A DNA stretch of 64,000 bases from Sphingomonas sp. (GTDB taxonomy: Bacteria > Pseudomonadota > Alphaproteobacteria > Sphingomonadales > Sphingomonadaceae). Below the pieces are notes generated by a model. It did no database searches. It saw only the letters and a program-made list of their open reading frames with translations, and was not told the DNA's origin. The DNA lies in the NCBI RefSeq assembly GCF_019746665.1, contig NZ_JAIERS010000008.1, forward strand, positions 1-64,000, written 5' to 3'. Shown here in pieces: positions 38,728 to 42,300 of the stretch; positions within the stretch are counted from its first letter, which is position 1; each line of letters starts with the position of its first letter. The translations under genes and the position numbers were made by a program.

Positions 38728-39207
38728 ATGCGGATCAGTTGGAGCCTGCTCGCTTTGTCGCTTGGCATGGCGGGCGTGTCGCCGGCGCTCGCGGCGCCCG
38801 GCGCTTTCCTTGCCAAGGCGATCAAGGGTGATAACGCGGAGATGCGCCTCGGCAAGCTCGCCCAGACGCATGGCCAAAGCACGGCGGTGCGGCGCTTTGG
38901 CGCGACGCTCGCGCGCGATCACGGCACCGCCCGGCGCGCGGCGCTGCCGGTGGCGCGGCGGCACGGCGTCGCCATTCCAGACGGTATGACCGACGAGGCG
39001 CAGGCGGAATATGCGAAGCTCGATCAGCTGCGCGGCCCGTCATTCGACCGCGAATTCGCGCGCTACATGGTCGAGGATCACCGCAAGGACATCGCCGCCT
39101 TCAGCCGTGAGGCGGCGATCCGCGATCCGGGCGATGTCCGCGCGCTTGCCCGGCAGACGCTGCCGGCACTGCGTCGCCATCTGCGCATGGCGCGCGCGCT
39201 GGGCTGA
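38728..39207 (+). CDS. DUF4142 exported protein
   Basis: A 159-residue DUF4142 family protein with a cleavable signal peptide (SLLALSLGMAGVSPALAA). The alpha-helical core has an N-terminal ALAKAIKGDNAEMRLGKLA-like segment and GATLARDHGTARRAALPVA, plus YMVEDHRKDIAAFSREA near the end. DUF4142 proteins often resemble ferritin-like stress proteins but their function is unknown. It could be controlled by the general stress response via the candidate promoter before it. Confidence 0.85.
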   Translation: MRISWSLLALSLGMAGVSPALAAPGAFLAKAIKGDNAEMRLGKLAQTHGQSTAVRRFGATLARDHGTARRAALPVARRHGVAIPDGMTDEAQAEYAKLDQLRGPSFDREFARYMVEDHRKDIAAFSREAAIRDPGDVRALARQTLPALRRHLRMARALG

Positions 39208-39218
39208 GGGAACGGCTG

Positions 39219-40118
39219 CTATTCGGTGCCGCCGCCCAAAAGGTGCCCGGCGATCGTCTGCCCGTAATAGTCGCCGCTTTCGTGGAACTGCGCCCGCGCG
39301 TTCTCGATGCTGCCCGTCTGGCGCGGATCGCGCGGACGTTGGTGGCTGTCGATGAAAGCGGCGACGTCCCAGGCTTCCTGGTCGGTCAAACTATTGCCGG
39401 CGCCAAACGGCATGTTGACCTTGATGAAACCCGCTGCGGTCGCGACGCGCGCCATCCCTGCGCCCCAGTTGAACGATTTCGACCCCCAAAGTGGCGGCGC
39501 GACGTAGCCGCCCGCGCCATCGGGCGTGCCGTGTCCGTCGGCGCCGTGGCATGCCGCGCATTTGTTGGCGAACACCGCGCTCCCGCGCGCCGGATCATGG
39601 CCGAGCGTGGTCTTGGCGAGCGCGATATAGCCGCGCCCCGGCGGCGGCTTGCCCACCGCCACCCCTTGCGCGAGCCAGGCGAAATAGCTCTGCAGATCGC
39701 GGTAGATCGGGTCGTCGAGCGGCGGCGGCCCCTTCGCCGGCGCGGCCGGCGCGTTCATCGAGTAAAGGAAGCAATCGTGAATCCGGTCGGCCATGGTGTT
39801 GATCCGGCCGTTCTTCTTGCGGAAGGCGGGGTAGCTCACCCAGGCCGCCCACATCGGCGCGGCATCGGCCTTGCGCCCTGCGTCCAAATGGCAATTGCCG
39901 CAGGCAAGGGCGTTGCCGACATAGCGTGGCGCGTGGCGGGCGGTCGCGAGGAACAGGTCGCGGCCGCGCCGGATCGCGTCGCCATCGGGGCCTGATGGGA
40001 TGGCCGACTCGTCGGGCGGGCTGAAGGCGGCTGGTTTGGCCGGTGGTGCCGCCGCACGCGGCTGGCACGCGCCGAGCACCACCGCGCCGAACGCCAGCAG
40101 CACCGTTCGATACCGCAT
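39219..40118 (-). CDS. Dihaem cytochrome c lipoprotein, TsdA-like
   Basis: A 299-residue exported cytochrome with two CxxCH haem sites (Cys73-Cys76-His77 in CGNCHLDAG, Cys187-Cys190-His191 in CAACHGADG). A lipobox (VVLGACQP, Cys18) would anchor it. The N-terminal half shows RINTMADRIHDCFLYSMN, the arrangement seen in thiosulfate dehydrogenase TsdA, whose haem 1 has an unusual Cys ligand; Cys116 may be that ligand. TsdA converts thiosulfate to tetrathionate. The DsrE-like gene starts 4 bases upstream of it on the same strand. Confidence 0.78.
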   Translation of the reverse strand: MRYRTVLLAFGAVVLGACQPRAAAPPAKPAAFSPPDESAIPSGPDGDAIRRGRDLFLATARHAPRYVGNALACGNCHLDAGRKADAAPMWAAWVSYPAFRKKNGRINTMADRIHDCFLYSMNAPAAPAKGPPPLDDPIYRDLQSYFAWLAQGVAVGKPPPGRGYIALAKTTLGHDPARGSAVFANKCAACHGADGHGTPDGAGGYVAPPLWGSKSFNWGAGMARVATAAGFIKVNMPFGAGNSLTDQEAWDVAAFIDSHQRPRDPRQTGSIENARAQFHESGDYYGQTIAGHLLGGGTE

Positions 40119-40122
40119 CGCC

Positions 40123-40836
40123 TCAGTCGACGATGTTGATGAAGCTATAGCCACGCTCCTGCGCGCGGTTCACCGCGACGATGCCGGCGGGCACGATCAC
40201 CGCACCGGGGATCATGTTGGCGCGCAGCTCGGCGTTGATCGCCTTCGCATCGCCGCCGCTCGCCCGGGCGAGTTGCGCCGCCATGCCCTCCGTCGCGATG
40301 CCGCACACCGCGAAGCGCGCGCCGCGCTCGGCGAGCACCGCCAGCGTCACCGGCGGCTCGTCATCCCCCTTCTTGGCGGCGGGCGTGGGCTTGGCGGGGG
40401 CGGGCGCCGAGAGGTTCGGATTGCCCTTGATCGCGCGGATCGCCTGTTCGCCCTGCATCTTCATCTTGTCGGCGATGGTCGCGCCATATTTGGCCCACAT
40501 GGCGTCGTTGAAGCCGAACGGGGTGGAGAAGTGGCGGAAGACGATGATCATCCCGAGCGCTTCGGGGCCGATGCCGTACCCCGCCTTGTTCTGAGCGTAG
40601 AAATTGTCGGCGTAGAACATCGCCGCCGTGCCCGAATCGATCGTGGTGGTATCAAGCACCAGGCGGTGGCGGGTGCCGGGGCGGTCCATCCAGGCGTCCT
40701 GCTCTTCCATCGCCGGGCGCCAGGGCGTGGCACCGGCGGCGGCCGGCGTCTGAGCGAGCGCGGGCATAGCCCCCGCCGCGCCCATCAGCCCGCCCACGCC
40801 GATCATCGCGCGCCGATCGATCATCTTGTCGCCCAT
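40123..40836 (-). CDS. Tat-exported DsrE-like protein
   Basis: A 237-residue protein with a twin-arginine signal (MIDRRAMIGVGGLMGAA). The mature part matches a DsrE/DsrF-like fold: RHRLVLDTTT near the N-terminus, and a single conserved Cys178 in RFAVCGIATEGMAAQLARA, with PGAVIVPAGIVAVNRAQERG at the end. DsrE-type proteins carry sulfur on a cysteine in sulfur-transfer chains. Residues 137-160 form a Pro/Ala/Lys-rich insertion. Its position next to the TsdA-like cytochrome and a TauE/SafE permease supports a role in sulfur metabolism, which remains inferred. Confidence 0.72.
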   Translation of the reverse strand: MGDKMIDRRAMIGVGGLMGAAGAMPALAQTPAAAGATPWRPAMEEQDAWMDRPGTRHRLVLDTTTIDSGTAAMFYADNFYAQNKAGYGIGPEALGMIIVFRHFSTPFGFNDAMWAKYGATIADKMKMQGEQAIRAIKGNPNLSAPAPAKPTPAAKKGDDEPPVTLAVLAERGARFAVCGIATEGMAAQLARASGGDAKAINAELRANMIPGAVIVPAGIVAVNRAQERGYSFINIVD

Positions 40837-40897
40837 CGTTGGTCCCCCCGAATTTGGCACCGAGCCTAGCCGCAGCCGGGGCGAGCGCACAAGCGCG

Positions 40898-41671
40898 CTA
40901 CAGCACCGGTCCGCTCTTCCACAGCATATAGCCCGCCACCGCGAAGATCAGCGCGGCGAACACCGGGGTGAGCGCGCCGCGCCGGGACAGCCGCTGGGCT
41001 AGTCTGGTGCCGGTCACGCCCCCGGCGATGCCGCCCAGAATGAAGATCGCGGCGAGCGACCAATCGATCATGCCCGATGCTGCATAGTTGAGCGCGGTGG
41101 TCAGCCCGAACGCGGTCACCGCGACCAGGCTGGTGCCGACCGCGTTGATCATCGGCATCCGCGTCGCCGCGATCAGTCCAGGAACGATCAGGAAGCCGCC
41201 CCCGATCCCGAAGAAGCCGGAAAGCAGCCCCGTCGCCCCGCCAAGCACGATCAGGCGTGGCGCGGTCGCGCGGGTGAGGCCGCCGCCGACGACTCCGGCT
41301 TGCTCGCGCCGGCGCAGCATCAGTACGCCCACCACGATCATCAGCAGCGCGAACAGGAACAGCAGGCGGTGCCCGTCGACCGCCTTGCCCAGGGTCGATC
41401 CCGCCAGCGCGCCGAGCACGCCCGCCGCCGCGAACGCGATCCCCGCGCCCCAGCGCACGTTGCGCGCGCGGGCATGTTGGGCAAGGCCGCTCGCGGCATT
41501 GGCGGCGACAGCGAGTGCCGAGCTGCCGATCGCGACATGCGGGTTCGCCACCCCCACCAGATAGACCATCAGCGGCATTGCCAGGATCGATCCGCCACCC
41601 CCCACCAGCCCGAGCGTGAAGCCGACCAGCCCGCCCGAGGCGGCGCCGAGCAGATATTGGAGCGGGGTCAG
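40898..41671 (-). CDS. TauE/SafE (TSUP) membrane permease
   Basis: A ~257-residue permease of the sulfite exporter TauE/SafE family with about eight membrane helices in two repeats, each with a GxGGG motif (GLVGGGGSILAMPLMVYL and GFFGIGGGFLIVPGLI). TSUP proteins export sulfite or sulfonates, or transport similar anions. The N-terminal segment LTPLQYLLGAASGGLVGFTL belongs to the family, but there is no ATG, GTG or TTG before it and a stop codon lies 6 codons upstream. The likely start is a CTG at 41671, which follows GGAGG at good spacing. A GTG start at 41605 would delete most of the first helix. Confidence 0.85.
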   Translation of the reverse strand: MTPLQYLLGAASGGLVGFTLGLVGGGGSILAMPLMVYLVGVANPHVAIGSSALAVAANAASGLAQHARARNVRWGAGIAFAAAGVLGALAGSTLGKAVDGHRLLFLFALLMIVVGVLMLRRREQAGVVGGGLTRATAPRLIVLGGATGLLSGFFGIGGGFLIVPGLIAATRMPMINAVGTSLVAVTAFGLTTALNYAASGMIDWSLAAIFILGGIAGGVTGTRLAQRLSRRGALTPVFAALIFAVAGYMLWKSGPVL

Positions 41672-41853
41672 CCCCGCCTCCGTGGGCTAAAGGGTCGACA
41701 GGGCAACGGCTTCATCGCCCAAACGCCGATGCTGGCTCTTCCCATCGCACCCCCCCTGGCGCGAGTGTGTCACAGCCCGCCGCGATTGGCCACGGGCGCG
41801 TACCTGCGCGCGGCGGGCTAGCAATCTCGCCCTCAGCCGCTACATCGCGCGCC

Positions 41854-42300
41854 ATGACTCGTTCCAAGGCCCGCGCCGCCGCCCGGCTCGCCGCCGTTCA
41901 GGCGCTGTATCAACATGCGATGGAAGCCACCCCGGTGCCGGCGCTGCTGCACGAATTCCATCAGCATCGCCTGGGCGCGACGATCGAGGAGGCCGAATAT
42001 GCCGAGGCCGACGTCGATTTCTTCAACGATCTCGTCCGCGGCACGCTCGCGCGCGGGGGCGAGGTCGATGCCTTGATCACCGCCAAGCTCGCCAAGGGCT
42101 GGACCCTGGAGCGGCTCGATAAGCCGATGCGCGAAATCTTGCGTGCGGGCACCTATGAACTGCTCGCCCGGCCCGATGTGCCGATGGGGGCGGTGATCAC
42201 TGAATATGTCGATGTCGCCCACGCCTTTTACGAAAAGCGCGAGGCAGGTTTCGTGAACGGTTTGCTCGACGCGATCGCGAAGGACGTGCGGGGCGGTTGA
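41854..42300 (+). CDS. nusB: Transcription antitermination factor NusB
   Basis: NusB binds boxA RNA with S10 and helps rRNA antitermination. The 148-residue protein shows RAAARLAAVQALYQHAME, LDKPMREILRAGTYELLARPD and VITEYVDVAHAFYEKREAGF with FVNGLLDAIAKD. All are standard. ATG 41854 is preceded by no strong ribosome-binding site. It overlaps thiL by 4 bases (TTGA). Confidence 0.94.
   Translation: MTRSKARAAARLAAVQALYQHAMEATPVPALLHEFHQHRLGATIEEAEYAEADVDFFNDLVRGTLARGGEVDALITAKLAKGWTLERLDKPMREILRAGTYELLARPDVPMGAVITEYVDVAHAFYEKREAGFVNGLLDAIAKDVRGG

Follow-up and report, generated by a model that had tools for sequence, protein, structure and literature searches.

We analysed a stretch of 64,000 nucleotides (nt) of Sphingomonas sp. 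DNA (contig NZ_JAIERS010000008.1; the window), in which three adjacent genes encode a dihaem cytochrome c of the TsdA type, an exported protein with a DsrE fold that we call DsrEl, and a permease of the TauE/SafE family (Table 1). An earlier note on this DNA had placed the three genes here on one strand, and both the coordinates and the minus strand check out. The DsrEl stop codon and the ATG of TsdA are separated by 4 nt, and the two genes may be translationally coupled. The permease gene lies 61 nt upstream of DsrEl, and no sigma-70-like promoter was found within 39100-41900. The comparisons described below provide good support for regarding exported DsrE proteins and TsdA as belonging together.

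Table 1. Genes of the DsrEl-TsdA locus and its flanks, in window coordinates
Gene or product	Position	Strand	Length (amino acids)	Basis or remark
TsdA-type dihaem cytochrome c	39219-40118	minus	299	phmmer, PF21342, motifs
DsrEl (exported DsrE-fold protein)	40123-40836	minus	237	AlphaFold fold, weak NF052225 match
TauE/SafE-family permease	40898 to about 41671	minus		PF01925; probable CTG start at 41671
DUF4142 protein (weakly also DUF305)	38758-39207	plus		convergent with TsdA
NusB gene	about 41857-42300	plus		flanks the three-gene group at the other side

The cytochrome has CxxCH haem motifs at residues 73-77 and 187-191. Using phmmer, we matched it to 5lo9 (E 2.5e-78), which we take to be TsdBA of M. 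purpuratum, and to the thiosulfate dehydrogenase structures 4wqc, 4v2k, 4wq7 and 4wqd (E 2e-57 to 2e-56), presumably all from A. vinosum; the TsdA structures score 195-267 bits. The Pfam family PF21342 (SoxA-TsdA_cyt-c) reaches 32.2 bits against a cut-off of 27, and the SoxA model 39.9 bits against a cut-off of 110. Judged by these model and structure scores, the cytochrome belongs with TsdA and not with SoxA. Cys116 falls at the position of the haem-1 ligand cysteine of the solved TsdA structures, and the haem-2 methionine is Met236. Across 60 aligned TsdA rows, of which two repeat the organism of another row, the haem-1 cysteine is found in 57 (the remaining three were shortened during extraction) and the haem-2 methionine in all 60. 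The TsdA-like features claimed for the cytochrome are thus upheld by both haem motifs, both ligands and the structure matches, and its identity leads us to expect thiosulfate or tetrathionate chemistry at the locus. Sulfide oxidation, which had also been suggested, gained no support. Export of TsdA and DsrEl was judged by eye from their leader sequences; that of TsdA has a lipobox (LGAC), and the protein is probably a lipoprotein.

The direction of the reaction bears on what the pair might do. TsdA enzymes are reversible, and the window protein has Asn235 at the position of A. vinosum Lys208, giving an Asn235-Met236 pair like that described for the Campylobacter enzyme, a tetrathionate reductase (PMC5146829). 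The pair could therefore run towards tetrathionate reduction, with DsrEl capturing tetrathionate for TsdA as the terminal reductase. However, Asn occupies this position in 57 of the 60 rows and so carries little information on direction. We dropped Asn235 as a mark of tetrathionate reduction on this ground, and regard a reductive role of the pair as very improbable.

DsrEl begins with a twin-arginine leader and has a sole cysteine, Cys178. Pfam gave no match, PF02635 being absent up to E 1, and a sequence search of the PDB gave none either; its assignment to DsrE was therefore made by fold and profile comparison. An AlphaFold model built from 6 sequences has a mean predicted local distance difference test score of 78.6, with residues 1-37 and 150-157 below 50, and matches 2pd2 with Z 13.2, YchN (1jx7) with Z 11.1 and DsrEFH (2hy5) with Z 9.9. 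On this model DsrEl has the DsrE/YchN fold, and we claim membership of the superfamily at the level of fold only. Cys178 is placed at a strand-helix junction (E174-178/H179). Its column is Cys in 21/21 aligned exported DsrE-superfamily proteins, a set made up of 10 DsrEl, 4 TSD (see below) and 7 PF02635-type sequences and closed before later members were found. The earlier description of an exported DsrE-like protein with a single conserved cysteine therefore stands for the cysteine and for the fold; membership of the Pfam DsrE family does not.

The one NCBIfam match of DsrEl is to NF052225, named 'thiosulfate dehydrogenase' and here called TSD (34.6 bits, E 1.2e-8). As the cut-off of this family is 300 bits, DsrEl is a distant relative of TSD rather than a member. 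Profile comparison of DsrEl with TSD gave a probability of 96.7%, with the similarity limited to the C-terminal half. This remote kinship had been overlooked in the earlier note. Because of its name, and because the same order of TSD, solute-binding protein and DoxDA genes occurs at locus L122, NF052225 appears to describe the haem-free enzyme AFE_0042 of Acidithiobacillus ferrooxidans. The gene for AFE_0042, reported as a 'Tat pathway signal sequence domain protein', is followed by genes for a periplasmic solute-binding protein and by doxDA (PMC2754497, PMC6335251).

We compared 10 distinct DsrEl loci. TsdA adjoins DsrEl in five of them (the window, L011, L014, L026, and L015, which is on the same contig as L009); in a sixth, L022, a solute-binding protein gene lies between DsrEl and a TsdA gene that runs off the contig. 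The outer neighbours vary: QueG and NusB lie near the pair in the window, tgt and rpsD flank it in L011, and a transposase gene identified by Pfam is upstream in L014. DsrEl is rare. In a draw from the family, it was present at full length in 4/149 Sphingomonadaceae genomes, with weak partial matches in three more, and in a class draw its profile matched 1/385 genomes, the window's own. A plasmid collection yielded no DsrEl, and a viral collection no relative. A profile scan of genome contigs gave five DsrEl loci, a low count that leaves rarity unproven as only two narrow peptide patterns were used. TsdA was present in 12/249 genomes of the family draw, among them all four with full-length DsrEl; in one of these four, G111, the two genes are far apart.

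We extended the comparison to three classes of exported DsrE proteins: (i) DsrEl; (ii) TSD over the NF052225 cut-off, mostly accompanied by a ModA/CysP-like solute-binding protein; and (iii) PF02635 proteins with a leader recognized by eye. In a phylum draw, TsdA was found in 43/398 Pseudomonadota genomes, the window's included. We surveyed about 6 kb around TsdA in 35 of the 42 others, several of these stretches ending early at contig ends; genomes G823, G922, G877, G946, G970, G782 and G999 were left out, and G823 was looked at later for its TSD, outside the 35-locus count. An exported DsrE-superfamily gene was present near TsdA in 7/35 loci (L078 of class ii; L081, L089, L092, L095, L099 and L102 of class iii) and in 0/35 control regions (Fisher two-sided p 0.011); the controls came from 27 genomes that have both TsdA and long contigs, eight of which were used twice. 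The class-iii profile was rebuilt with four loci of the same draw; six of the seven matches had been found beforehand, and that in L095 was found only after the rebuild and then confirmed by Pfam. TsdB is present in 20 of the 35 loci, two of which also have an exported DsrE.

In the family draw, an exported DsrE gene lies beside TsdA or one gene off in 6/12 loci (the window, G136, G065, G600, G137 and G025). The other six are G044, G111, G020, G106, G576 and G623, of which the last two were examined for 1.5 kb per side; the 36-kb stretch examined around TsdA in G044 contains TsdB and neither an exported DsrE nor a SoxB-like gene. A quick TsdA tree with 58 rows, among them added plasmid loci picked for TsdA, requires at least nine changes in the DsrE-TsdA association, which has thus been gained or lost repeatedly. 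The gene-neighbourhood search proposed in the earlier note therefore backs the DsrEl-TsdA pair as a unit, both in the DsrEl loci and in the excess of exported DsrE genes near TsdA over the controls. Within one TsdA clade, loci L092, L099 and L102 have a row of a cyclic nucleotide (cNMP)-binding/rhodanese protein, an exported DsrE, TsdA and a sulfate permease (by Pfam in L092, by eye in L099 and L102); in the same clade, L095 has DsrE, TsdA and a permease, and L101 is without the DsrE gene.

A tblastn search of plasmids with a true TSD gave 24 records from 12 genera. The TSD is over the NF052225 cut-off in all 15 records examined. TsdA lies no more than 5 kb from TSD in six of the 12 genera (Bosea, Bradyrhizobium betae, Caballeronia, Methylobacterium, Burkholderia and Paraburkholderia), and a row of TSD, solute-binding protein and DoxD is present in three (Kozakia, Acetobacter and Gluconobacter, for which two of three records were examined). 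Records H38 and H51 were left out, and the Bradyrhizobium SK17 stretch stops short of where TsdA would lie. In seven further records (Caballeronia SBC1, B. arboris and five of P. fungorum), match coordinates place TsdA no more than 3 kb away. Draws that started from TSD gave over-cut-off genes in 5/398 and 1/372 genomes. Among the five, TsdA is in the cluster in G941 and G823, and in G660 the TSD gene is followed by genes for a solute-binding protein and a DoxD/DoxA protein. Both kinds of tetrathionate-forming enzyme are thus accompanied by exported DsrE proteins, in many cases together with a solute-binding protein.

Some clusters are richer. That of Bradyrhizobium betae encodes DsbD, DsbA, TSD, a solute-binding protein, a SoxB-like hydrolase (326 bits, cut-off 550), TsdB and TsdA; that of Bosea also has TlpA, a sulfide-quinone-reductase-like gene, Blh, YeeE/YedE and TauE, with a SoxB-like gene of 315 bits in the wider stretch. 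We rejected SoxB-like genes as a general feature of the clusters: the TsdA test loci contain a single one, that of Bradyrhizobium betae, and Bosea and Bradyrhizobium SK17 have one each, all under the SoxB cut-off.

Several further observations concern TSD. In public plasmid records (L041, L160, L161, L168, L169, L170, L171, L172 and L178) it goes by the name 'transcriptional initiation protein Tat', which is misleading for an exported sulfur protein. The 43-kb Acetobacter ascendens plasmid NZ_CP015167 (L178, L042) carries a row of TSD, solute-binding protein and DoxD as well as a row of DsrE, two solute-binding proteins, TsdB and TsdA. In L012 (4270-8877), L120 and L123, TSD lies near molybdopterin oxidoreductases of the sulfite-oxidase kind and not near TsdA (by Pfam in the first two, by eye in L123), and in L012 a solute-binding protein accompanies it. 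L121 (3794-8795) has a row in which TSD is joined by a solute-binding protein, a pair of Sulf_transp (YeeE/YedE) proteins and a multi-haem protein that contains a TsdA domain.

The kinship of DsrEl with TSD raises the question of whether DsrEl, like AFE_0042, might itself act as a haem-free thiosulfate dehydrogenase, with TsdA or another cytochrome as its electron acceptor, such that the locus would hold two unrelated tetrathionate-forming enzymes. The NF052225 E value and the profile probability argue for this, as does the finding that in 9/12 plasmid genera an over-cut-off TSD has TsdA within 5 kb or DoxD at its side, and the A. ferrooxidans enzyme is reported to reduce neither ubiquinone nor horse cytochrome c (PMC6335251). 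However, the bit score of DsrEl is far from that of a family member, the similarity covers only its C-terminal half, and with one cysteine and no known cofactor DsrEl has no evident redox centre. We therefore consider a dehydrogenase activity of DsrEl itself unlikely.

The permease is a clear member of its family (PF01925, 171.5 bits, gathering cut-off 32.6). The region of its start (41605-41689) has no ATG, GTG or TTG before the conserved first membrane helix; the CTG at 41671 is 5 nt behind a GGAGG and is the likely start. Among the DsrEl loci, TauE was found in the window only: it was not found in the examined stretches of the five other DsrEl-TsdA loci, of which those of L022 and L026 are short, and a one-sequence TauE profile matched 0/35 of the phylum TsdA loci. 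Close relatives nevertheless lie in other TsdA clusters. The window TauE shares 175/253 identities (69%) with that in the cluster of Sphingomonas FARSPH, whose TsdA is also closer to the window's than that of any other tree row, and 62% identity with those in the clusters of Bosea and Methylobacterium. After these relatives were found, we revised an assignment of TauE as unrelated. The case for the permease as a fixed third member, as the earlier note had it, is weak, and its link to TsdA clusters is retained. The nearest repeat of the cytochrome-DsrE-permease triad is the Caballeronia SBC2 cluster, in which TauE, a class-iii exported DsrE, TSD, TsdB and TsdA occur together.

What might DsrEl do beside TsdA? 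Catalysis by TsdA proceeds through a cysteine S-thiosulfonate (PMC4423706), and DsrE3A of the archaeon Metallosphaera cuprina forms a Cys-S-thiosulfonate with tetrathionate in vitro (PMC4175335). The simplest reading combines this chemistry with the export leader and conserved cysteine of DsrEl, the 4 nt between the two genes and the thiol reductases in some of the richer clusters: DsrEl would work with TsdA as a periplasmic carrier of thiosulfonate or sulfane sulfur, a reading to which we give a probability of about 0.5. As established for the family, TsdA would bind thiosulfate on Cys116 at haem 1 as S-thiosulfonate, its electrons would leave through haem 2, and tetrathionate would be released with a second thiosulfate. 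Cys178 of DsrEl would take up thiosulfonate, either from tetrathionate, as DsrE3A does, or directly from TsdA. DsrEl would thereby drain tetrathionate and pass the sulfur to a later step, for which a SoxB-like hydrolase and Dsb/TlpA thiol reductases are candidates in some related clusters, and TauE might carry sulfite or a related anion over the inner membrane.

A more specific form of the carrier proposal takes its lead from SoxAX, from which the same thiosulfonate group is proposed to move to SoxYZ (PMC4423706). DsrEl might be to TsdA as SoxYZ is to SoxAX: its single cysteine would accept thiosulfonate directly from the cysteine at the haem, and thiosulfate oxidation would go through a protein-bound intermediate in place of free tetrathionate. 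We offer this tentatively and think it somewhat doubtful. Were it true, the Acidithiobacillus-type 'thiosulfate dehydrogenase' next to DoxDA or TsdA would follow the same principle, with its oxidoreductase neighbour as the electron acceptor.

Several observations weigh against a carrier role. No TsdA gene is present in the stretch examined of 4/10 DsrEl loci (L010, L016 on a 3-kb contig, L017 and L018), and by the profiles used 28/35 TsdA loci have no exported DsrE nearby, 18 of them having TsdB instead. The TSD of Methylocella, Novosphingobium (two records) and Rhizobium has neither TsdA nor DoxD within 6 kb, and two of the five TSD genomes of the 398-genome draw have it near neither. The relation of DsrEl to DsrE3A is remote, and DsrE3A itself is described as unreactive with thiosulfate (PMC4175335). 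Direct transfer from TsdA is uncertain, as the model places Cys178 at a strand-helix junction and not evidently on a mobile arm. In the window genome (94.9% complete), SoxB gave no match at E 0.001, and 10/14 control genomes matched, none over the cut-off; no downstream hydrolase is therefore known there. A SoxY search gave no match in the window genome or in any control genome, and carries no weight here.

The DsrEl loci without TsdA in the stretch examined are also what would be seen if the two genes were neighbours without joint function. However, the same pair recurs in differing surroundings, three exported DsrE classes are found near TsdA, and the control regions contain none, so we give mere proximity the slimmest of chances. 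Alternatively, DsrEl could be a maintenance factor that frees the haem cysteine of TsdA from off-pathway adducts, sulfane or thiosulfonate, or that aids TsdA maturation. The Dsb/TlpA genes of some clusters would suit such a role, and the TsdA thiosulfonate is reported to decay to a cysteine S-sulfane (PMC4423706). The many TsdA loci without an exported DsrE nearby argue against it, as does the finding that the related TSD also accompanies DoxD, which is not known to be a haem protein. We regard a maintenance role as quite improbable.

In the open-licence PMC literature, our searches turned up no account of TsdA with an exported DsrE or TSD next to it. The parts of the locus all belong to known kinds, and together they make up a new variant. 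TSD and TsdA are treated in a review as separate kinds found in different sulfur oxidizers (PMC6335251). Here, relatives of the haem enzyme and of the haem-free Acidithiobacillus protein share gene clusters. Two questions thereby become testable: to what the haem-free protein hands electrons or sulfur, and where the tetrathionate group goes in organisms that have TsdA but no sox genes. The recurrent pairs suggest that TsdA, a well-known sulfur enzyme, has an unrecognized protein partner.

The locus can be set against several known systems. It resembles the TsdA-SoxB pathway of Erythrobacter flavus 21-3 in that both point to TsdA-based thiosulfate oxidation in related bacteria; that pathway uses SoxB, a TsdB is proposed for it, and the main text of its description does not name DsrE (PMC7608252). 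With the Sox system (SoxAX, SoxYZ and SoxB) it shares PF21342, common to SoxA and TsdA, and the notion of a cysteine carrier proposed to take thiosulfonate, whereas the window genome has no SoxB match and the putative carrier has a DsrE fold. DsrE3A of Metallosphaera cuprina belongs to the same superfamily as DsrEl and is the model for the proposed carrier chemistry, but it is described beside an hdr-like complex, with two conserved cysteines and TusA as its partner (PMC4175335), whereas DsrEl is exported, has one cysteine and goes with TsdA. TSD, as in AFE_0042 and its tsd-sbp-doxDA cluster (sbp, solute-binding protein), is likewise an exported DsrE-superfamily protein with a conserved cysteine near a tetrathionate-forming enzyme; DsrEl differs in its score, in its unmatched N-terminal half, in having no adjoining solute-binding protein, and in that TsdA replaces DoxDA. 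Finally, the window cytochrome is homologous over most of its length to TsdA and TsdBA of A. vinosum, M. purpuratum and C. jejuni, with the same two CxxCH motifs, Cys ligand at haem 1 and Met at haem 2, but in place of an adjoining TsdB its neighbour is an exported DsrE-fold protein.

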